Source of the DNA: Sphingobacteriia bacterium | Lineage (GTDB): Bacteria; Bacteroidota; Bacteroidia; Bacteroidales; UBA7960 | Length of the DNA: 59,848 nt | Assembly: GCA_011390785.1 (NCBI GenBank) | Contig: JAABRR010000028.1 | Location: 1 to 59,848 of the forward strand | Direction of reading: 5' to 3' | Part shown: piece by piece, positions 9,417 to 41,900 of the stretch | How the letters are laid out: each line of letters starts with the position of its first letter | How positions within the stretch are numbered: position 1 is the stretch's first letter | Translations under genes and position numbers: made by a program | Notes under the pieces: generated by a model | Told to the model about the DNA's origin: nothing | The model's input: the letters and a program-made list of their open reading frames with translations, nothing else | The model's database searches: none

Positions 9417-10349
9417 TTATTTCTTGAATTTTTGATCTTCCACCATCTTGATTCTTGTTTTGGGTAAGCACTCAGGATACTCTTTTTGGATAAACTCAAT
9501 TAATTTTTCTCTTACATAAACCCGAAGGTCCCATGCCTGGGGACTAGTGGCTGCGCTCATAAGTGCTCTTATTTCCAGAGTAGTTTCTTTTGCATCGGTT
9601 ACCTGTAGTACATTTACTTTTTTATCCCAGTAGGGGCTTGATTCCAGTAATCGGGTAAGCTCCTTGCGCAAAGGTTCAAAAGGTATGTTATAATCGGTAT
9701 AAATAAATACTGTTCCCAAAATATCTGCTGATGTGCGTGTCCAGTTCTGGAAAGGCTTTTCAAGGAAATAGGTAGATGGCACTACAAGTCTGCGTTTATC
9801 CCATATTCTCACAACCACATATGTTAGGTTTATTTCTTCTATCCAGCCCCATTCATTTTCAACGATAACCACATCATCTTGCCTGATAGGTTGTGTAATG
9901 GCAATCTGAAGGCCAGCCAGCAATGTTCCGATAGCTTTTTGAGCCGATAAACCCAGAATAAGTCCTGCCACCCCAGCTGATGCAAACAAGCTTACACCTA
10001 TGTTTCTTACACTATCAAAAAGCATTAAGGTAACAGCGGTGCTTATTACAACAATAATGAAAACAAGTATTTTTTCCAGAATATTAAATTGCGTATAAAT
10101 CTTTCTGCTTTTCAGGTTGTCAACACCGTTTAAATCATAATGAGTAAGCAATTGCGATTTGCCAATTCTGACAAAAACAATAGTTGTCCAGGCTATGCTG
10201 ATAACAAATAAAACTTCACCGGCTTTAACAATACCTGATGTAAAATCAACCGGAATTATGCTTATGTATTCAGGTGCTAATCTAAAAAACTGAGCCGTAA
10301 TAAACAGAATTACGGGAATAAGAAATCGCTTAATTAACTTTATTATCAT
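9417..10349 (-). CDS. MscS-family mechanosensitive ion channel
   Basis: This 310-residue protein has about four hydrophobic segments. The last is rich in Gly and Ala (SLFASAGVAGLILGLSAQKA, about 127-146), as in the pore helix of MscS. The beta domain follows (IRQDDVVIVENEWGWIEEINLTYVVVRIWDKRRLVVP), then a C-terminal alpha/beta domain. Channels of this family open under membrane tension and release solutes during hypo-osmotic shock. It is convergent with the trehalose synthase gene, with a 4-base gap. A second, smaller MscS-like gene lies at 32255-33025. Confidence 0.92.
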   Translation of the reverse strand: MIIKLIKRFLIPVILFITAQFFRLAPEYISIIPVDFTSGIVKAGEVLFVISIAWTTIVFVRIGKSQLLTHYDLNGVDNLKSRKIYTQFNILEKILVFIIVVISTAVTLMLFDSVRNIGVSLFASAGVAGLILGLSAQKAIGTLLAGLQIAITQPIRQDDVVIVENEWGWIEEINLTYVVVRIWDKRRLVVPSTYFLEKPFQNWTRTSADILGTVFIYTDYNIPFEPLRKELTRLLESSPYWDKKVNVLQVTDAKETTLEIRALMSAATSPQAWDLRVYVREKLIEFIQKEYPECLPKTRIKMVEDQKFKK

Positions 10350-10377
10350 GATATATTGGTTTTAGTTCCTGTTATCA

Positions 10378-30756: not shown

Positions 30757-32124
30757 ATGGCTAACAGAAAGCTCAGGAATTTTGAATATGCAAATCATAC
30801 CGAAAAGGGAAACCAGGTTATAATTAATACAGATCAGGTAGAATATTTTGATTGTTCTAACGGTAGTGTATTTATTATTTGTCAGGATGATGAAAATGTA
30901 GCTCATGAGGTTAGCCTTTCATCAATGGCTGTGCAAAGAATGAAATACTACCTTGAAAATGAGTATGTTGTTAATCCGCAAAGTGCCCTTTACAATGCAT
31001 TGATATATACCAATGGCTTTATTTTCGAATATGTACGAAAAAATGAAAACTATAAAGGTTCTTACGTGCATTGTGCCTGTGTGCTGGCAAGAGATAATAA
31101 GCTATATTATTCTGTTTTGGGTAATTTGTCCATCTATTATTCCAATGGTAAAAAACTATTTCTTCTAGCTAAAGATACCAGGGAAACCAACAGAGAAAAA
31201 TCTGCTGATAGCAACGAAAAGAGCGAAATCCAGGACGAAGATGGTTACTTATTGGGTATGGCGCGCAATGTGAGTCTGGAAATTAATATTGAACCCCTGG
31301 AACCGATAAATGACGATATGTTGCTTTTATGCAGCAAAGGATTGTATGAATTTGTTGCTGAAAAAAGTATTCAGAAAATATTGGCCGACCCCATGCCTGC
31401 TCAAACAAAGCTTTACAGGTTGTTGGATATGGCTAATATTGCGGGGGGAGAAAATAATATCTCTGTTCAGCTGATCTCATTTTACAATCTTGAAAATACT
31501 GATCGAAAGTTCAAACCTTTTACCTCAAAACGGCCCGGCCTTTTAAAGAGAAAGCCTGAGACAAGATCACCCAAACCAAAGAATGACGAAGAAGATGAAA
31601 ATTCTTCAACTTCGATTCTGGATAAGTATTGGGTTCCTCCATATAAGTATATATTTATCGGATTGGTTGTTTTATTAGTTTCTTATATGTTTTATGATAT
31701 CTTTTTAAAAGATCAGCCAAAAGTTGTGACACAGGAAAAACCCCGGAAGGAAACCCCTGAAGATGCATTACAGGTTACTGATTCCCTTGAAATCCTGGAA
31801 ACACCTTTAGAATCTGAAAATGAAACGGTTAATATTCCTGAAGATCGTTTGTATGTTGTAAAACCGGGAGACACCTGGGGTAAGATATATACTGAATTTG
31901 GTGTTTGTTCATGGTTTATAAGAAATCTTGAATCTAACAAGGGTAAATTTGATGCTGACGAAAATCCTATTGCCGGGAGTAGAATTTTTATACCCATACT
32001 TTATTCTTCCAAGGAAATTTTAAATCCTGATTTTTATCAGGAATTTAGCCTGGAAAAAACAGGTACGCGTTGCGAAAATGCAAATGAAGGGTTTATTGAA
32101 CGTTTTAGGGATTTAAACCTGTGA
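30757..32124 (+). CDS. Degenerate PP2C-like domain, membrane segment and LysM domain protein
   Basis: This 455-residue protein has a PP2C-like N-terminal part (about 1-245), a low-complexity charged linker, one membrane segment (about 298-318) and a C-terminal LysM domain (about 362-413; LYVVKPGDTWGKIY). The PP2C fold is suggested by the order of motifs, but the metal-binding Asp residues are missing: ICQDDENVAHE in place of the DGMGGH region, CSKGL (K194) in place of CSDGL, and GGENNISV in place of GG-DN-T-V. It is therefore likely a pseudophosphatase. The layout resembles a sensor with a cytoplasmic phosphatase-like domain and an outside peptidoglycan-binding domain. It is a plus-strand gene that converges on the MscS-SLC12 operon. 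Confidence 0.75.
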   Translation: MANRKLRNFEYANHTEKGNQVIINTDQVEYFDCSNGSVFIICQDDENVAHEVSLSSMAVQRMKYYLENEYVVNPQSALYNALIYTNGFIFEYVRKNENYKGSYVHCACVLARDNKLYYSVLGNLSIYYSNGKKLFLLAKDTRETNREKSADSNEKSEIQDEDGYLLGMARNVSLEINIEPLEPINDDMLLLCSKGLYEFVAEKSIQKILADPMPAQTKLYRLLDMANIAGGENNISVQLISFYNLENTDRKFKPFTSKRPGLLKRKPETRSPKPKNDEEDENSSTSILDKYWVPPYKYIFIGLVVLLVSYMFYDIFLKDQPKVVTQEKPRKETPEDALQVTDSLEILETPLESENETVNIPEDRLYVVKPGDTWGKIYTEFGVCSWFIRNLESNKGKFDADENPIAGSRIFIPILYSSKEILNPDFYQEFSLEKTGTRCENANEGFIERFRDLNL

Positions 32125-32186
32125 TGTATTAAAAATTAACAACATAACTAAGCAGAATTATACTATTGATTGTTTAAAAACCCCTG

Positions 32187-32244
32187 CACTTAACTGGCAA
32201 ATTATTAATGAATAAAATTAATGAACAGTCTGTTAAGTGTTTTT
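32187..32244. terminator. Possible bidirectional terminator between convergent genes
   Basis: CACTTAAC (32187-32194) and GTTAAGTG (32232-32239) form an 8-base stem around a long loop with an inner ATTAAT repeat. The right arm runs into a T stretch, and a short A stretch flanks the left arm. The long loop makes it uncertain. Confidence 0.4.
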
Positions 32245-32254
32245 CATGCTCCCG

Positions 32255-33025
32255 CTAACTTAAATCAGCATTGATTATTTTACCCGCAAATTCCCCTACA
32301 AGTTGTTTCTCGGTTTGAGCAAAGTATATCTCGTCAAGTGTATAAATGGTAAGTAAAATAACTATAAATTCATCAGATTCTTCATCAATAGTTACTTTAG
32401 GCTTTTTTTTCTGCGAAATCCAGGGCAATAATAAAATAAAAGACTTTATTTTATCCATCAATTCAGAAATATCTGTTTCATCGTTAATATAGGGTATTTT
32501 CATCCTGAAGCTATGACTTAAAAGACTCTGCGATGGAGAATTTTTAAAAACAATATTGCCGGTAATCTTGCTGTAAGGCAAAATTACAAGTCGCCCGTTA
32601 TCATCTTCCAGTTCCAGAAATGTTTTCTTAATTGAAATTATTTTACCTGCAGTATTCGTATCGGCTATTGTTATATGGTCATTGATCTGTAATTGATTTG
32701 ATGTTTTAAAAACAACTCCGGCAATTATATCCTTTAGTCCAAACCAAACAAGATAAAGAATAATAATAATAAAAATAATTGCGGGCATTATTGTTACCAG
32801 ATATCCCTTATTGTAAAGGAATTGGATTGCCCAGATAAGGAAAAGTACCCAAATGGTAAGCTCAGAAACCGGCAGGTATTTGTGAATTAGGAATACTTTA
32901 CTTCTGGAGAGGCGTAAAAATCTCAGTAAATATTTAAATAGCCTGAATCCTATAAAGATTAACAGTGCAAAAAATAAAAATAACAGCACCGACAATGAGT
33001 AAATAGGAGGGGTATAGTAGTCCAT
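32255..33025 (-). CDS. Small MscS-like mechanosensitive channel protein
   Basis: This 256-residue protein has about three to four membrane segments followed by an MscS-type beta domain (IIAGVVFKTSNQLQINDHITI, then GKIISIKKTFLELEDDNGRLVILPYSKI). It lacks the larger membrane part of the channel at 9417-10349. It lies 35 bases downstream of the SLC12-AAA+ fusion gene on the same strand, so the two probably form one operon. That pairing suggests joint work in volume or ion control. Confidence 0.82.
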   Translation of the reverse strand: MDYYTPPIYSLSVLLFLFFALLIFIGFRLFKYLLRFLRLSRSKVFLIHKYLPVSELTIWVLFLIWAIQFLYNKGYLVTIMPAIIFIIIILYLVWFGLKDIIAGVVFKTSNQLQINDHITIADTNTAGKIISIKKTFLELEDDNGRLVILPYSKITGNIVFKNSPSQSLLSHSFRMKIPYINDETDISELMDKIKSFILLLPWISQKKKPKVTIDEESDEFIVILLTIYTLDEIYFAQTEKQLVGEFAGKIINADLS

Positions 33026-33060
33026 TTTTTTATATTTTTTGAAACTAATGGTTAGTAAAA

Positions 33061-36000
33061 CTATAGCAGTTCCTTCTCAATTAATCTTTCACGAATAAAT
33101 GCGTGCAAAGCAGGATTGAGAGTGTAAACGCCCCTTGCTGGTTCAACAAGGATGGCTGCTCTTAATAGCAATTTAATTCTATTTTTTATTTGTTTTGGTG
33201 GCAATAGTATAATTCGCTCCAGTTTGTCGATGTTTAGCCTTTTGTGCAGAATAAACTGCACCAGAAAAATCAGGGTTTCTGGGTTTAACTTACTCATCAC
33301 AGAAAGATCTGGTTTCTTAGGCTGCTTTATATAAATGGTTTCGCCTTCAGCTCTTGTAATATTGGTTATCCATGTTTGAAGGCTCTGACCTATATTTCCG
33401 CGGGTATAATTAAAATAGATATTGAAGAGTCTCGCATAATCCCATGAGCGCATTTCTGATTCTTTTTTCCCGTGGTAAACAAACTGCATATTACCTGCTT
33501 TATGCCTTTGGATGATTATATTTTTAAGTTCTTCGGCATTGAATGGTTTACAATTGATAATCCCCAAAAGATATGTATCCAGGGGCATAAAGTTATTAAT
33601 ACTATTAAATGCATGTATATTTGCGGTAATAATGAAAAGAATTTTGTTTCCATATCTTTCAATAAGAGAAGACAGAAGGCTAATTACCTTCAATCCTTTT
33701 TGTGCTTTTTCCCACCAAAGTTCCAGATCTTCAATAACAATAACAGTTTTTTCCGGAAGATTCTCCAGTGATTTCCTTGTGTTATCAGTATTTTCAAGTG
33801 CTTTTTGAAGAATTCTTATAAATTCCGACTCGCTGGTTGATCCCGCAAAAGGGGGTGTTAGGGTATAGATATTTCTTTTCTGAAGAAAATTATGGATTAT
33901 GTAATTTACAAAGAAGGATTTTCCAGAGTTGTGCTCTCCTGTAACCATTAAAGCTCCGTTAAAACCATTGTTATGACGATCAATAATTTGGCCGGCTTCA
34001 TCTATCTCAGCAGGTTTACCATACCAGAAATCCATAAAGTAATTGTTCTTTCTTAAAAACAAAGACTGATAGTACGCTGGAATTGATGACCCCTTAATTT
34101 TTTTTGGTGAAACAGCTTCAAGTAATTTATGGAAGCTCTTTACCGGGAAGGTTTCATCTGCATCCATATCTTTGGCCTGATCCGCAAAAACAATTCTCTT
34201 GCTTCGATCATACCATATTTTAATCAGATTTCTACGGGCAATATCCTTTACCTGCCTGGCTCTATTGTAAAATGCGTTACTAACAGGGCTTATCTCCTTG
34301 CTTTTTTCGAGTAACCGCATGTTTTCTGCAGTTTTAATAAAAGTGGATAAGCTTAATTGTGTAGCAACCTTGTTATAATTGCTATCGATTTTATCGTTGG
34401 TAACAAGTACCAGATTATAGATTCTTTCCTGTACATCAATTATGCGCAGGCGCTGTGATTCAAAGAATCCATCGAGATCAATATCTTGTTGTTCTTCCTG
34501 ATCAACGGTAAGGGTTACCTTCATTAGCCTGATAATATCCAGGACTTCTCTTTGTATTTCGCCAATTTGTTGTGACAAGTTTCGTATGGTTCTCTGCAGG
34601 GGTGATAACAGGTCGTTTTGTACAATAAAATGCAGTAAACGTGATACTTCTACAATTTGCCTGTTGCTGGCAGTAAGAACTCCCCGTTGCCAGTGCATCT
34701 CGGTGCCTGGTTTAAGCAACTCAAGCTTTCCTGGCATTTTGCTTAAAGTTAGATTTGCTTTTTCCTGTAACAGATCTTCAATTTCTTTAATTCTATTATG
34801 TAAATATTTGTCAGACAGTATTTTGAAATCGGGCAATTCTATTGGTTGTCCGTTTTTTAGTTGCGCCAGGCTGTTCTCTGTAAATTTGAGTAATTGAGAT
34901 GGAAGGTGGATTATGTCCGTACCATCACTGTTATACCATAATTCATTTAAGTCTTTACGTGCTTTCTGGGTATAGTGCCATAGTTTATATTCTGTTTCGG
35001 AAAGACTGATTTCCAAGCTATTTAGATTAATATTTAAATGCTGATGTTCTTTCCAATCGGTAGCAAAATTTGTGAAGGCAATTGTTTCTGTTCTTTTTGG
35101 GTGAGAGGGGTAATGAGATTTCTTTTTTAACCGGTTAGGATTAGCAGAATTGAAGCTGTTGGCAATTTCTGCCAGTATTCTCAGGCTGTGTTGTTCTGAT
35201 ATTTTGAGAAGATTCTTTTTTGACTTAGCAAGAAACTCTTTAAGAAGGGTAAAAGATGATTCTGATTTCTTCTTCTCTGTCAGAATCATTGTACTCTCGA
35301 TGGTATTATTTTGCAGGGCGTTTTCCAGTATGTGCAGACTGTCGCGAAACTCCCTGAAAACTCTTTGTTGTTCTGAAATGTATTTACGCGAAATCTCATT
35401 GAATTGTTCTCCCAGGTCTCTCCGAAGATAAAACCATGAATGGGGATAATACTTGCTTATGATTTTCTTTGACTTTATTCTGAACCGGATAGGTTTTTCC
35501 GGATAGAGCCTTGATCGTACTTTTACTGAGAAGGGAAAATGTATAATCTGGTTTGTTGCCCGTAGTTCTTTGGGGTTAAGAGAAACTTCTATAAAATCTG
35601 GTACTTCATCAATAGATCCGGACACATCCGATTCAAATTTATTAAGGAAGAGACTTAGTTTTTTCTCTTGTTCATCAAGTAACGAAGATTGAATGTAGGT
35701 AAGTATCTGCGCATATCTACTAAAGGTGTTATTACTGAGTTTATAAAATGCATTGTCCAGATCATTCCATGTAGCATTACTAATAAGCAGTCTTTTTGTT
35801 ATTATTTCAAAGGTAGCATTTACCCTGTTTTCGGCATTGGTAATAACTTCGGCATACTCACTCAATATTTTACCAAAGCCTTTTTCAGAAAGTTCAAAAC
35901 TTTTAATGAGCGTTGCGTTTGTAAAATCTTTCAGATAAGTGTTTAATTCGGGCTTTTCAGGCCATTGAATGCTATTGTTGGAAATTTCCGGTAGGCTGAT

Positions 36001-38235
36001 TTTTTTCCCCGGGCTAATTGTTTGGTTTTCGGGGGTGTATTTTATTCCAATGTTTAGTTTTTTAAATTGTGTTGATGCCTTTATTAATACCACCGTTCCC
36101 AGGTCGGCACATAGTTTCATTATCTTATCAACAAATTCATTTTCTTTACCAGATTCCATTTCCGGAATACCTAGAAAAACAATATCAGAATCGACAGATT
36201 CGATCCGGATTATATCATAAAAAGGTTTTTTATCAATTTCGTTATTGATAATAATTATCTCGGCATTGATTCGAAGGTTATCAAGTACTTCTCTTGCGAA
36301 GTTGAAAATATTCTCTCGTTCATCGTTTATGCGGTTTTCTATCATTAATCGCAGTTGGCTATCTTTCCATCCATCTGAGAGCCATAAAAATTTAACCAGA
36401 TTCAAAGCAAGGTTTCCGTTGTTTCCAGAATCTTGCCACCAGATATCTATAACCTTTCTTTTTCCAAACCCCTTTTCACTGTCATAATCCATAAGCAGAA
36501 GGTTCAGATCGAGATCAATGATATGTTTTACAACCTTTGCAAATCTTACAGATGCCGAATTTCTACCTGTCCATCCCATTAAAACAGTGTTGGGTTCAAC
36601 TCCTGCAAATCCGTAATTTTCTGAGATGGTTTCTATTCCCTTAAAAATATCGTTAACAAAATATTCGCGGGTAAATATGCCTGTTTTGGCTTGCAGGGGT
36701 TCGGTGCTGTTTTTTTGAAGAAATCGAGGCCTTGGTTTTTCTTCATATTCATTTTTCTTGAGATTCATTAGGGTTAGCAGGCCATGATTGGCAATAAGTG
36801 CTTTACCCAGTTCGGTAAGATGTGGTCGAGTATCTGGATTTCCACTAAAGAGCATAATGTTGGGTTTCCAGTTTCTTTCTTCAAGGCCTTTGTTGGTAAT
36901 ATGAAGCGAATTTCGTACAAGGTTGGCCCAAACACTCTGCCATACATCACCCGGCTCTAGTTTTTGCTCACGCCGTTTCATAAGGTACCATACTGCCCAA
37001 ATCAGGGCAAAAGCTACTACCATGGCAATGGGATCAATTTGCAGCATTACAATAAAGCTCGCGGCAAATCCAAGCCATCCAACCCAGCGGGGCACCTTAA
37101 AAGATGGTCGAAAATCAGTACTGGCCCAGCTTTCCAAAGAAAACGCCAGGTTTATAAAAGCATAAGCAGTAATGTAAAACATGGATACTACCCTGGCAAT
37201 GGTATTAAGGTCGCCCATCATAATACCTGCCTGAGCAAGAACCCAGGTCATCAAAATGGCTATACGAGGCTCATTATTAATACCAAAACCTATACTCAGA
37301 GGTTTTGGAGCAAGCCTGTCTTTGGCAAGGGCCTGTAAAATTCTTGGGCCACCCAAAATACCACCCATGGCTGATGAGATAGTAGCACCCCATATCCCTG
37401 CCAGCACCAAAACAGGCAAAAAGGCCACCTTTTGTAAGAATGATGAATCTGTTAAAAGTAAATCACGATTAACAAATAAAGCAAAAAGAGTTGCTAAACC
37501 CAGGTAAATAATCAGACCAATGAAAATGGCCCACAAAGTTCCTTTCGGAAGAGATTCTTTGGGATTCTTAAGATCGCCAGACATTGCCACTCCCACAGTA
37601 AAACCTGTTACCGAAGGAAAAAATACTGCAAACAACAACTGAAGAGATGGAGCACTTGTTGCCGGACTTAACGATGGCCCGGTTATTTGATGTGTGGGGT
37701 TAATAAGAATCCCCGCAACTATTGAAGCAATTGACAAACCAATAGCGGTAAGAACAAAATATTGAACCTTTATGGTTAACGATGTGCTGATAAAGGCAAT
37801 AATAACAATAAGCAATAGAAATACTGAAGAAATAATCTTATAGGATGCAATATCCTGTTGAAGATTCAGTAGGTTTCTGATTGAATCTACAGCCAGAAAG
37901 CTTTCAGCAAAACCAACAAGATAGAAGGAAATACTAAGTGCCGTTCCAAGAAAAATAGTAGCTCCGATTGCGCCTCCCATTGGTAATCCCAGACTTCGGG
38001 AAAGCATGTAGTATATGCCACCTGCTTTAATTTTTTTATCTGTGGCAATAGAAGAAAGACTTAAGCCTGTTGTTATCGATATAATATGAGCAATAAGAAT
38101 GATAACAATGGTGTAAAACAATCCGGCCTGACCAACAATCCAGCCAAGGCGAAGATACATAATTACACCCAGGATGGTTAAAATGGCAGGGGTAAAAACG
38201 CCTCCAAAGGTTCCGAATTTTTTAGCTCTTTCCAT
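33061..38235 (-). CDS. Giant SLC12-type cation-chloride cotransporter fused to an AAA+/winged-helix ATPase
   Basis: The protein has 1724 residues. Residues 1 to about 418 are an APC-superfamily transporter with SLC12 hallmarks: LGWIVGQAG in TM1, FFPSVTGFTVGVAMSGDLKNP in TM6 and SSAMGGILGGPRILQALAKD in TM8. About 440-740 resembles the cytoplasmic C-terminal domain of SLC12 carriers (KPNIMLFSGNPDTRPHLTEL). About 750-1390 is a long, mostly helical region without recognised domains. About 1420-1724 is an AAA+ ATPase with Walker A GEHNSGKS (1433-1440), Walker B VIVIED (E1502, D1503), a sensor-1-like IITAN, and a C-terminal winged helix (ARGVYTLNPALHAFIRERLI). SLC12 carriers normally move Cl- with Na+ or K+. 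The ATPase fusion is unusual. No frame break was seen, and the -7 box at 38278 fits this start. Confidence 0.88.
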   Translation of the reverse strand: MERAKKFGTFGGVFTPAILTILGVIMYLRLGWIVGQAGLFYTIVIILIAHIISITTGLSLSSIATDKKIKAGGIYYMLSRSLGLPMGGAIGATIFLGTALSISFYLVGFAESFLAVDSIRNLLNLQQDIASYKIISSVFLLLIVIIAFISTSLTIKVQYFVLTAIGLSIASIVAGILINPTHQITGPSLSPATSAPSLQLLFAVFFPSVTGFTVGVAMSGDLKNPKESLPKGTLWAIFIGLIIYLGLATLFALFVNRDLLLTDSSFLQKVAFLPVLVLAGIWGATISSAMGGILGGPRILQALAKDRLAPKPLSIGFGINNEPRIAILMTWVLAQAGIMMGDLNTIARVVSMFYITAYAFINLAFSLESWASTDFRPSFKVPRWVGWLGFAASFIVMLQIDPIAMVVAFALIWAVWYLMKRREQKLEPGDVWQSVWANLVRNSLHITNKGLEERNWKPNIMLFSGNPDTRPHLTELGKALIANHGLLTLMNLKKNEYEEKPRPRFLQKNSTEPLQAKTGIFTREYFVNDIFKGIETISENYGFAGVEPNTVLMGWTGRNSASVRFAKVVKHIIDLDLNLLLMDYDSEKGFGKRKVIDIWWQDSGNNGNLALNLVKFLWLSDGWKDSQLRLMIENRINDERENIFNFAREVLDNLRINAEIIIINNEIDKKPFYDIIRIESVDSDIVFLGIPEMESGKENEFVDKIMKLCADLGTVVLIKASTQFKKLNIGIKYTPENQTISPGKKISLPEISNNSIQWPEKPELNTYLKDFTNATLIKSFELSEKGFGKILSEYAEVITNAENRVNATFEIITKRLLISNATWNDLDNAFYKLSNNTFSRYAQILTYIQSSLLDEQEKKLSLFLNKFESDVSGSIDEVPDFIEVSLNPKELRATNQIIHFPFSVKVRSRLYPEKPIRFRIKSKKIISKYYPHSWFYLRRDLGEQFNEISRKYISEQQRVFREFRDSLHILENALQNNTIESTMILTEKKKSESSFTLLKEFLAKSKKNLLKISEQHSLRILAEIANSFNSANPNRLKKKSHYPSHPKRTETIAFTNFATDWKEHQHLNINLNSLEISLSETEYKLWHYTQKARKDLNELWYNSDGTDIIHLPSQLLKFTENSLAQLKNGQPIELPDFKILSDKYLHNRIKEIEDLLQEKANLTLSKMPGKLELLKPGTEMHWQRGVLTASNRQIVEVSRLLHFIVQNDLLSPLQRTIRNLSQQIGEIQREVLDIIRLMKVTLTVDQEEQQDIDLDGFFESQRLRIIDVQERIYNLVLVTNDKIDSNYNKVATQLSLSTFIKTAENMRLLEKSKEISPVSNAFYNRARQVKDIARRNLIKIWYDRSKRIVFADQAKDMDADETFPVKSFHKLLEAVSPKKIKGSSIPAYYQSLFLRKNNYFMDFWYGKPAEIDEAGQIIDRHNNGFNGALMVTGEHNSGKSFFVNYIIHNFLQKRNIYTLTPPFAGSTSESEFIRILQKALENTDNTRKSLENLPEKTVIVIEDLELWWEKAQKGLKVISLLSSLIERYGNKILFIITANIHAFNSINNFMPLDTYLLGIINCKPFNAEELKNIIIQRHKAGNMQFVYHGKKESEMRSWDYARLFNIYFNYTRGNIGQSLQTWITNITRAEGETIYIKQPKKPDLSVMSKLNPETLIFLVQFILHKRLNIDKLERIILLPPKQIKNRIKLLLRAAILVEPARGVYTLNPALHAFIRERLIEKELL

Positions 38236-38277
38236 AATGCTGATCTGTAGTTTTTCACCTTGATATTACCTGCAGAG

Positions 38278-38285
38278 CAAATATA
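38278..38285 (-). promoter_or_regulatory. -7 promoter box (TATATTTG on minus strand) for the SLC12-AAA+/MscS operon
   Basis: The plus strand reads CAAATATA, 43 bases upstream of the start at 38235. Confidence 0.6.
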
Positions 38286-38333
38286 ACCAAAACGCATCAT
38301 TATTCAATGAGTTGCGGATAGGGGGCAGAAAAA

Positions 38334-38771
38334 TTATTTGATAGGTTCATAAAGGCATTTTACCATAAAAGTGCCTTCGGGATGTCTGGTTTTTTCTACA
38401 TAAAGCCTGTCTGAAGAAAGGTCTATGATGAACCACTGCTCTTTTGCCTGTTCTAAAATAATTGTACGTTCTCCGCGGGTATACCAGAAATCATTTCGTG
38501 CACCGCCAATGGTTACAAGTCCGTCGGCAGTAAAAATAGTAGGTGCATCCAGATCAATGGGCTCCATTCCTGCTTCTACAATTTGGGGAATTCCCCAGGC
38601 AGTGAGCAGCAGATTATCAAGATCAAATATAAACTCCTTTTCTTTACAGGAAGTATTTGTCAGCCCAACAAGAAGGCCGATCCAAAGAAGCAGCTTAAAT
38701 TTTTTTAAATAATTGGAGCAAAGAGTATTAAAGGGGTTCTGCAGAAAAATACTCAAAAATATGTTTGTCAA
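38334..38771 (-). CDS. Small putative lipoprotein of unknown function
   Basis: This 145-residue frame from a TTG start has a hydrophobic stretch (LLLWIGLLVGLTNTSC) followed by Cys, which looks like a lipoprotein signal with an overlong N-terminus. The mature part is about 100 residues and beta-rich, with TRGERTIILEQAKEQWFIIDLSSDRLYVEK. The stretch LLLTAWGIPQIVEAG resembles small Bacteroidota lipoproteins of the lipocalin-like type, but I cannot name the family. The true start is unclear: no ATG or GTG is in frame before the hydrophobic part. It lies 209 bases after the 1182-residue outer-membrane gene on the same strand. Confidence 0.6.
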   Translation of the reverse strand: MTNIFLSIFLQNPFNTLCSNYLKKFKLLLWIGLLVGLTNTSCKEKEFIFDLDNLLLTAWGIPQIVEAGMEPIDLDAPTIFTADGLVTIGGARNDFWYTRGERTIILEQAKEQWFIIDLSSDRLYVEKTRHPEGTFMVKCLYEPIK

Positions 38772-38980
38772 GTTGTTACATTTATTTTAGAGTTATTGGT
38801 TACAAGGACTATTAAACAACAATTCGTAAAACCTTGCTTTAAAATATCGTTGGTTTTAGGTATAACATCTGTTTCGTTGCCTGCGGCTCGCAGTATTCAT
38901 ATAAAGCTTCACCTTATCGACTTGCACCTGATCTACTTAAAATTTCTTCATCGGAGCCTAAAAAGAAAAAAACCTTAGAA

Positions 38981-41900
38981 TTATCTTTCTATAACAACTA
39001 TTTCTATTCTTCTGTTTCTTCTGCGATTATCTTCTGTATCTCCCGGGGCAAGGGGTCTGGAATCTTTGAGACCAGTAAATTCTATATTGCTGAATCCATT
39101 TCTTACCATGTATCGCATAATAGTTTCGGCTCGTTGCATTGAAATATTTGGATTATCAAGAGTTTCTTCTGCATCTGAGTGTCCTTCAATTCTTATTTTT
39201 ACATTCGGATTTTGTTTCAGCTGCGATATTAACCTGTCGAGTTCAGGTAGTGCTTCGGTGGGTACTTCCAGACTTCCAGAAGCAAATCGAAGGTTATTGA
39301 ACTGGAAGCGAGCTCCAATAGTAATACTTTGCAGTAAAATGTCTCTTTCTGCATCCTGGATGGTTAAAAACTGATCCAGGATCAGCCTTTCTGAATGCAT
39401 CCAGTAGCCATTTGCTGAAACCACAATCATATAGTCTTCGCCTGTGGCAAAACTTGTGGTGTATCTACCTGAATTCCTGTCAGTGGATGTTTGTACGATA
39501 GTATTTCCGTTTCTGTTGTCAACAATCTCTATGGTAGCTCTTATGGGCTGTAAGGTTGTTGCTTCGCGCACCGTACCATTAAGGTTGGTCCTGCCTACCC
39601 GACGAATCTCGGTTTGTATTTCACTTTGGCTTGGGGTAAATTCTATCTGTCTGCGCAATTCATCGAAAACAAAGTTTACTTCAAATTGCTTAAATCCATT
39701 AAGGTTGGCTTTGAAATCGTTTTGCCGCAGAGTGAAATGATCTCTGAAAATATTGTTGATGTTAATAATATAACTGTCAACACTTGGCACATACATTTCA
39801 AAGTTTCCTTCAGTATCGGTCAGGGTAGATACCTGGCGACCCTTACTGTCAGTTGCAGTAATTTTAATATTCGATATTTCAATCCGACCCAATGTTGACA
39901 ACCTGCTTCGGTTCAGTATTACTTTACCAAATATCTTGTTTCTTTCCAGGTAGGGAACAAAAACAGTTTGATCTTCTTCATGACTGATGATTATTTCATT
40001 TTGATCGGGAAAATATTTTGCCTGGTCGCTTCCTATATTCTGTAGCTCAATTTTATAAATGCCACGTGCCAGATTCTCATAAACAATTTCTCCGAAGTTA
40101 TTTGTCAGAAGTCTGCTGGCCACCATAGATCCGGCAACTTCATAATCTGCACCATACTGGCTATACAAAATGGGGTCAATACTGGTAATAGAAACTATTA
40201 CGTCTTTTACTCCTGGTTCATTGGCATCTCTGTTAAGGTTGCCATTCATGTCCTTAAAAAGATTTACTTTCAGATCATAGTACTTGACCCTGGGCTGGTT
40301 CCAGTTGAATTCTTTTTTTATCCGCAGTTCAAAATAGTTGTTGCTGTATGTGTAATTGTCTTCGGTTAAAATATCAGTTGTTATCTGCTGGCTGTTGGTG
40401 TTTAGAATGCTTAATGTATAATCATTCCTAAGATAAAAATCGAGCTGATTATTTAAGATCAGACGTGTGGTTTTGAAAGAGAAATCATGCAAAAAGCTAA
40501 CCTTTGAAGATAATTTTATCTGATCTTTATAAATGAACCTCTCAAAGTAGGGCATTAGCCTTATTGAGTTGGTTGTTATATTATAATAAAACTGTGTAAT
40601 TTCTTGATTTACAGAATAAGGGCCATAAAAGTAGTTGAGGTATAAACCCCAGTATTTTCGCCTGAGGTTGATACTGAGATGGCTACTGAAAGGCCTTTTA
40701 TTTGGGTTATCCATTACAATAGACGGCAAATTTTCGTCGGGTACAGAATAATTGGTAATAAAAGTATAGCCAAATGTTGCGGCAGGATTAAATGTAGTTC
40801 CGAGCCCATCACGTATTCTTACCCCGAGATTTAGTTTTGCCGATTGTGAGCTAAAGGGGTTTATATCATCATAAAGGAAGAACGAATTGGTAGATTTTCT
40901 TTGATAGACCGGACCTCCGTAAATATTAAAATTGCGGTCTATTATTTTCCGCATAATAAGTTTAACATCAGATGTTTCCTGGAATCTTTCGGCAATTGTT
41001 CCCAAAGAAGATTCAATTACGGGTTGATAGTTTCTATCCGTAACCATAAAATCGAAAGAAGTAGTTTCTGTATTTCTGTAATTTATTCTGGCGGTAAATT
41101 CATGGCGCCCGGCGTAATTACCGTAAAACTTTGATGTACCCAATTGCTCTCTCATTCTTATGGAAAACTTTTTAAAAAGGCCGGAATAATCGAGCGTAAG
41201 GCCATACCCAAGTTCTGCAGTATTTACATCATTGTAATCAACAAGGCTAAAACCCAAATTGGCTCTAATTCTGTGTTGATTGGTAATATTTAGCGTTGTA
41301 CCCAGGCCGAAGGTTTGAGCTCGTGAGTTAAGAAAGCGGTTTTGGGTAAACGAGTAGCGGGGTATAAGTCTGAAATCTGTAGCAGTCTCGTCGATAATGA
41401 TTCCGAAATTTGTAATGGGCCTGAAGGGGTTTTCACCCACCAAAACTGTAGTTTTAATATTCTCAGGATAACGAATACTAATAAAAGCTCCTTTCCCAAA
41501 ACCATTTCGCAGTGGAAACCCGTAAATATCTCCCAATCCGGCAGTGAAGTTGGGTGTATTGTATTCTAACCTTATTCGGCTGTATTTCATAAGGTTGGGA
41601 TCGGTTCCGTATTTGTAAAAGTTATAGGTAAGACTTTTCTTTTCCGGAAAGAGTAAAATACCCCTAAAACCGCCCACAAGGTAACTTCTTTGAGTACTAA
41701 GCAGGTTTTGGATTGCAAGCTCTAAGATCAGCATCTTTTCAGAATCAGGTACCTTAAAACTATAGTTGGAAGTGAGCTGATCGAACCAAAAAGATGTTTG
41801 AAAATCTGTTTCTTGCGTTGTCGCTTTCATATCAACACGAAAAAAGTTACCATTTCTAATCGTATTGTCATCCATTTTTCGGGCTTTCATGGTAATAACG

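Follow-up and report, generated by a model that had tools for sequence, protein, structure and literature searches.

The analysed stretch of DNA (the window, 59,848 nucleotides of a contig from a Sphingobacteriia bacterium) carries a gene in which an SLC12-type cotransporter is fused to a long helical region and a predicted AAA+/STAND-type ATPase domain, and this gene is followed on the same strand by a gene for a short MscS-family protein. The fusion and its pairing with the MscS gene recur in several phyla, and the linkage to MscS follows the ATPase module and not the transporter. We consider it rather probable, judging from the sequences, that the module is a nucleotide switch that binds the MscS ring and ties Na+/K+/Cl- import by the SLC12 part to the state of the MscS protein.

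The fusion gene occupies positions 33061..38235 (stop codon included) on the minus strand. The original prediction, made from the window's letters without database searches, had described one uninterrupted frame here and named no strand; the frame of 1724 residues is indeed free of stop codons. An SLC12/APC transmembrane core is formed by residues 13–428 (36952..38199, minus strand), the same residues that are covered by AA_permease (PF00324, E 8.4e-49), and is followed by an SLC12-type cytoplasmic C-terminal domain at residues 429–740 (36016..36951, minus strand), parts of which align with the C-terminal domains of NKCC1 and the KCCs. The Pfam family of the latter domain, PF03522, is matched from residue 470 with 34.8 bits against a cut-off of 27 if residues 1–740 are scanned alone, and with 26 bits in the whole protein, and both SLC12 assignments of the original prediction are therefore borne out by Pfam. 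The best solved relatives in the PDB are NKCC1 and the KCCs, and the NCBIfam K-Cl cotransporter family TIGR00930 is matched below its cut-off (362 bits against 953).

NKCC-type ion-site residues are present in the fusion protein as Y105, P207, T210, A284, S287, S288 and Y358. According to the available part of PMC7889885, the ion sites of human NKCC1 include an Ala and two Ser residues in TM8, a Tyr in TM3, and a Pro and a Thr in TM6. Among the 72 of 93 fusions that were aligned, namely those whose N-terminal motif was found, the Na+/K+ site residues A284, S287, S288, Y105, P207 and T210 are kept in 71–72 sequences. The Tyr in TM10, with a role as second Cl- site, is kept to the same degree (71–72 of 72), and the equivalents of N298 and W300 in TM1 of human NKCC1 are mostly T and L in the fusions. 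From the conserved ion-site residues, Na+-coupled import of K+ and Cl- in the manner of NKCC is the most likely activity of the SLC12 part.

Residues 741–1400 match no Pfam family above cut-off, in agreement with their earlier description as uncharacterised helical sequence, and in the members scanned the helical region stays below the cut-off of every Pfam and NCBIfam family. The predicted model shows about 600 residues of long helices with small strand insertions (residues ~755–1360, 34156..35973, minus strand), and a profile-profile comparison gives signs of an internal duplication (probability 92%, E 5e-7). The helices are followed by the putative AAA+/STAND-type nucleotide-binding domain (residues ~1385–1643, 33307..34083, minus strand) with an intact Walker A motif, GEHNSGKS (residues 1433–1440, 33916..33939, minus strand), and an intact Walker B motif, VIVIED with Asp 1503 (33727..33744, minus strand), followed by LELWWE; both motifs lie where they had been placed from the sequence. 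A winged-helix-like region is predicted at the C-terminus (residues ~1644–1724, 33064..33306, minus strand).

The AAA+ assignment with its winged helix needs some qualification, as the Pfam scores of residues 1401–1724 of the fusion itself are below cut-off (AAA_16 24.4 of 32.6, AAA_22 18.7 of 27). It rests on the predicted structure and on a homologue, L205, that passes the AAA_22 cut-off (32.5 against 27), and with these it stands for residues 1385–1724 as a model-based call. The model of residues 721–1724 has a mean pLDDT of 79.7 and a pTM of 0.56. Among the Foldseek matches listed, the best by E-value are Orc/Cdc6 proteins (best E 6.5e-7), and CED-4, Apaf-1, plant NLRs and RuvB are also found; the TM-scores are low, 0.14–0.49 by target length among the matches listed, because the whole 1004-residue model was compared. 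The matches to CED-4, Apaf-1 and the NLRs might suggest a STAND-type immune sensor, with the MscS pore or the transporter as effector in abortive infection. Such a role seems unlikely, considering that the PADLOC models gave only one weak match (E 0.007) in the four proteins scanned, that long helices are found where STAND sensors usually carry repeats, and that the module occurs jointly with one MscS subfamily and in operons with K+ carriers.

The partner gene, encoding a 256-residue MscS-family protein, is located at 32255..33025 on the minus strand, 35 bp beyond the end of the fusion gene. Its predicted model has three transmembrane helices, a beta domain and an alpha/beta domain, and among the matches listed against solved structures it resembles MscS-family proteins along its length; these matches are MscS-family entries or entries titled only membrane protein, with E-values of 6e-12 to 3e-8 and low TM-scores (0.31–0.46). 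A second MscS-family gene of the window (9420–10361, minus strand; PF00924, 47.8 bits) lies away from any module. Upstream of the fusion gene there is a small lipoprotein-like frame without a Pfam family (38334–38771, minus strand), and small predicted lipoprotein genes, alike by eye, are found upstream of three fusions without a seen MscS neighbour (L041, L057 and L072). A promoter scan of positions 32000–39100 gave hits near chance (26 against 23.6), and no clear operon boundary was detected there in the promoter and terminator scan.

A frame error or an assembly join between the transporter and the ATPase was looked for and is ruled out by relatives in the same and other genomes. On another contig of the same genome there is a full-length fusion paralogue, 33% identical, which has an MscS gene after it. 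Further full-length fusions come from Bacteroidota, from Myxococcota and from several more phyla, so the fusion is no artefact. The same genome also carries a stand-alone module of 1015 residues followed by MscS. Interruptions that might be sequencing errors or real splits are seen in two loci, one between the SLC12 part and the module (L105, 5879–11020) and one within the SLC12 part (L035, 7720–12927).

In the survey of 149 genomes of the order, some match was found in 67, and in many of these it was confined to the SLC12 part. The survey table contains 26 genomes with a fusion match and two with fragments, and since the fusion lacks the AAA+ domain in two genomes, 26 are ATPase-bearing. A scan of named contigs, of which the best 80 of 158 confirmed places were used, gave carriers in Bacteroidales, Ignavibacteria, Delongbacteria, Calditrichaeota, Latescibacterota and SAR324, and in the Myxococcota Enhygromyxa, Plesiocystis, Sandaracinaceae and Polyangia; a phylum survey contributed 40 of the places listed. 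Altogether 150 module genes are non-redundant by their last 250 residues, with close relatives still included and rows with an AAA E-value above 1e-12 left out of the counts. The SLC12 fusion accounts for 93 of these and a fusion to a CPA-type antiporter for six, and the rest are stand-alone, shortened or at a contig end. The search profiles for MscS, AAA and SLC12 were built from early survey matches, and the locus counts therefore depend on them. A scan for viral relatives with a single protein, which reaches close relatives only, found none, and tblastn against plasmids matched 24 records in part, always over less than 80% of the query, with all ten of the matches listed in the SLC12 part.

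Among the 145 non-redundant loci that lie away from a contig edge, 134 have an MscS gene adjoining the module. The recurrence of the fusion across Bacteroidota with the same neighbour, which the original prediction had put forward for survey, holds, the neighbour being the MscS-family gene. It is located downstream on the same strand in 123 loci, often with overlapping stop and start codons (within 400 bp in 121, at 420 bp in L089, and in the next gene in L221), and directly upstream of the module in 11 loci, which form a separate clade with a G+C content of 52–71%. The 11 loci left over are without an MscS neighbour; eight of them are full-length SLC12 fusions, and the modules of the other three are cut at the 5' end. 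The Pfam family PF00924 is matched by all 62 members of a partner alignment made up of the window protein and 61 proteins from named loci, and the Pfam check covered these 62 and a few others of the 134; the partner in L062, which Pfam does not detect, was counted as MscS and had also gone into the MscS search profile.

Conservation of the neighbour through the SLC12 part itself is ruled out by the stand-alone SLC12 genes. In the 24 of 33 such places in the order survey that served as control, no gene is immediately followed by MscS; a divergent MscS neighbour is seen at one gene, and at another an MscS gene lies about 1.1 kb upstream. Because of this control we conclude that the MscS linkage follows the module and not the transporter. 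Three modules of about 340–430 residues (L198, L199 and L200) consist of an AAA+ domain with little helical region and are followed by MscS. Several fusions have a longer MscS-family gene (about 560–640 codons) upstream of them on the other strand, namely in L044 (11121–12863) and L045 (1561–3339, the one checked with Pfam), with similar frames in L092, L093, L106, L114, L119, L131, L143, L144, L149 and L152.

The pairing is also seen at the level of whole genomes. In the 149 genomes of the order, a short MscS protein (E 1e-25 or better) is present in 24 of the 26 with an ATPase-bearing fusion or fragment and in none of the 123 others (Fisher 1e-25); the profile was built from fusion neighbours, so the test concerns the occurrence of this subfamily elsewhere and not MscS generally, and scoring did not extend to all first-look candidates for a short MscS in every genome. 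Of the 26, the short MscS is missing from G098, a genome whose unpaired fusion keeps the ATPase domain, and from G114, where the contig ends inside the ATPase domain. Three genomes with unpaired fusions (G016, G077 and G098; the named loci L082, L087, L090 and L103 are likewise unpaired) were searched whole, and a short MscS was found elsewhere in G016 and G077 and not in G098. G141 has one beside its other fusion, and G070, with its fusion at a contig edge, also carries one. The two fusions that consist of SLC12 and helical region and end before the AAA+ domain (L057, 8077–12006, and L072, 29–4054, both on the minus strand) belong to G102 and G076, and in neither genome was an AAA+ module (E 1e-8) or a short MscS found, with the contig in G076 ending 25 bases past the stop codon of the fusion. 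The helical region kept without AAA+ and MscS suggests that it has some use of its own.

An incidental neighbourhood, with a C-terminal part that is a passive tether or a relic, is very improbable indeed. The 11 of 145 modules without an MscS neighbour would fit such an explanation, and it is opposed by the stand-alone SLC12 control, by the joint presence in genomes just described, by the conservation of the motifs and by the opposite gene order in a separate clade.

Seven named genomes have two fusions, and five of them have two complete pairs that could be compared. The two MscS proteins inside one genome are only 17–25% identical, and the nearest MscS locus in another genome shows 31–92% identity, indicating that paralogous pairs keep their own MscS partner. 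In six of ten cases AAA+ and MscS have their nearest relative outside the genome at one and the same locus, and over all pairs the nearest neighbours coincide in 44 of 71. The Spearman correlation of pairwise identities is 0.59 for AAA+ against MscS and 0.55 for the transporter against MscS, values to be expected also from shared descent alone.

Other forms of the module occur as well, and their helical regions are homologous to that of the SLC12 form by profile comparison (99.2% for stand-alone, 98.8% for CPA-fused and 96.5% for upstream-MscS modules); the match between the CPA and upstream-MscS forms is weak (24%). Stand-alone modules of about 1000 residues adjoin MscS without any transporter fusion. 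The CPA-type fusions are followed by MscS in six of six loci. The gene order read there is constant: first a membrane protein of about 414 residues (in L064 without a Pfam match), next the fused module and MscS, and last the TrkH-like and TrkA-like genes. The CPA search profile was built from one protein (L064), and Pfam detected the PF00999 antiporter domain in L064 and L205 and not in L206, TrkH in L064 and L192, and TrkA in L203. TrkH is also found directly upstream of a related long module (L207), and CPA genes are found upstream of a stand-alone module (L066) and near the module of L062. In the AAA+ tree the SLC12 fusions, the CPA-type fusions and the upstream-MscS modules form clades with SH-aLRT values of 97, 99 and 100, on which these statements rest as the tree is a quick one with no mixture model and a long-branch warning; of the 104 rows in the SLC12 clade, 11 are shortened, split or without a detected SLC12 part. 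As the SLC12 and CPA fusions fall in separate clades, the tree suggests that transporters were joined to the module at least twice.

The ATP-site motifs differ in their conservation between the forms. The Walker A Lys is present in 92 of 93 SLC12-fused, six of six CPA-fused, 16 of 25 stand-alone and none of 11 upstream-MscS modules. For the Walker B Asp the counts are 89 of 93, none of six, four of 25 and none of 11, respectively. An Arg-His pair past Walker B is found in 92 of 93 SLC12-fused, 19 of 25 stand-alone and all 11 upstream-MscS sequences, a conservation that extends to modules with a lost ATP site. Walker residues are missing from many modules without SLC12, and ATP hydrolysis is consequently not essential to the whole family. 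The covalent fusion and the intact Walker motifs could be taken to mean that ATP hydrolysis drives transport directly, as in a primary-active chloride/potassium pump, an explanation that we regard as highly improbable, since the NKCC ion-site residues are kept, the AAA+/STAND switch fold is not that of a known transport ATPase, module homologues occur without a transporter, and two fusions are without the AAA+ domain.

The forms also differ in the pore helix of their MscS partners. An Ala/Gly-packed TM3 has a role in the gating of MscS channels, and this packing is absent from the partners of the fused forms. The fraction of Gly and Ala in TM3 is 0.15 in 82 SLC12 partners and 0.12 in six CPA partners; the 23 stand-alone partners reach 0.42 and the 11 upstream-MscS partners 0.51, a difference between classes that rests on few independent clades; for the partners of shortened modules it is 0.21 (cut at the 5' end), 0.38 (short) and 0.25 (L207). 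Without the Ala/Gly-rich helix, the partners of the fused forms may not be ordinary tension-gated channels.

The main rival to our reading is that the module is mainly a regulator or anchor of MscS, to which the transporter was joined later for co-production and co-placement, the ATPase not controlling transport. The stand-alone modules of about 1000 residues beside MscS agree with this, as do the non-fused modules generally, with partners that keep the Ala/Gly-rich pore helix (0.42 and 0.51) and with Walker motifs of their own that are often degenerate. We hold it to be the less likely course, though one to be taken seriously, because the motifs of the ATP site are best preserved where the module is fused to SLC12, and it is there that the ordinary MscS pore helix is lost, and because several other versions are located with monovalent-cation carriers (CPA with TrkH/TrkA, and L066 and L062 near CPA genes).

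Under the preferred reading, of a nucleotide switch between transporter and MscS, the fusion gene and its neighbour would together encode a unit of ion and volume homeostasis, with the fusion protein as its large subunit. The helical region and the AAA+/STAND domain would constitute a nucleotide-dependent regulatory arm and no transport motor, acting together with the adjoining MscS protein and contacting its ring through the helical arm, the AAA+ domain or both. Depending on whether ATP or ADP is bound, the arm would tie the transporter's salt uptake to the state of MscS, so that uptake and MscS-mediated release are kept from opposing each other, and the module alone, or with a CPA-type antiporter and TrkH/TrkA, might exert a like control over other K+/Na+ carriers. 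The sequences themselves show the fusion, its pairing with MscS, their joint presence and loss, and the conservation of the motifs; from these we infer the physical contact, the direction of control and the transport and ATPase activities. The original prediction had suggested that the fusion couples ion flux to nucleotide state, which is possible for the fused form, or that it remodels a partner, for which the MscS protein is now the candidate; its account of the parts held, the identity of the neighbour as MscS had been missed, and the ATPase module proves to occur also alone or fused to CPA.

A more specific version, possible at best, is that a ring of AAA+/STAND domains on the MscS heptamer locks NKCC-type import against release, and that in the fused versions MscS is an ATPase-controlled channel or a ring scaffold, with mechanosensing replaced by nucleotide switching. 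Were this true, it would be a bacterial counterpart, in one complex, of the control of cell volume in animals, where sodium/potassium/chloride-type transporters set the volume; MscS is an osmotic safety valve.

The results outline an ATPase-module family linked to MscS and joined, in several phyla, to monovalent-ion carriers of different kinds; in the members scanned it stays below the cut-offs of the Pfam, NCBIfam and PADLOC families. It becomes testable how ion uptake and MscS-type release are coordinated in bacteria so that neither works against the other, and so does the nucleotide control of SLC12-type transporters, which according to the available part of PMC8280820 is open for the animal proteins too, in some of which adenine nucleotides bind to the C-terminal domain. 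The original prediction knew of no described system of this kind, and in the open-licence literature searched, including the available part of PMC7159879, no description of the combination of fusion, module and MscS was found.

Compared with the SLC12 cotransporters NKCC1 and KCC, the fusion has the same transmembrane core and C-terminal domain and most of the NKCC Na+/K+ site residues, but the matched solved animal proteins and the stand-alone relatives of 740 residues do not have its approximately 1000 extra residues with AAA+, and the fusion also has a dedicated MscS partner. The partner resembles MscS channels in matching PF00924 and in its fold-model matches along its length, but differs in its 256 residues, in the missing Ala/Gly pattern of the pore helix and in belonging to a subfamily that occurs only with the fusion in the genomes searched. 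The module shares a predicted AAA+ core and winged helix with Orc/Cdc6 and the STAND NTPases CED-4, Apaf-1 and NLR, but is joined to long duplicated helices and to membrane transporters, and we know of no Orc/Cdc6 or STAND NTPase that regulates an ion carrier. A further comparison is with the Ktr/Trk systems of K+ uptake. TrkH/TrkA-like genes are part of the CPA-type operons; in Ktr/Trk the RCK subunits provide a nucleotide-responsive cytoplasmic control of K+ flux, with domains that differ in fold from the AAA+ module. Judged by these comparisons, each part comes from a known superfamily, and it is the combination of the parts that appears to be new.
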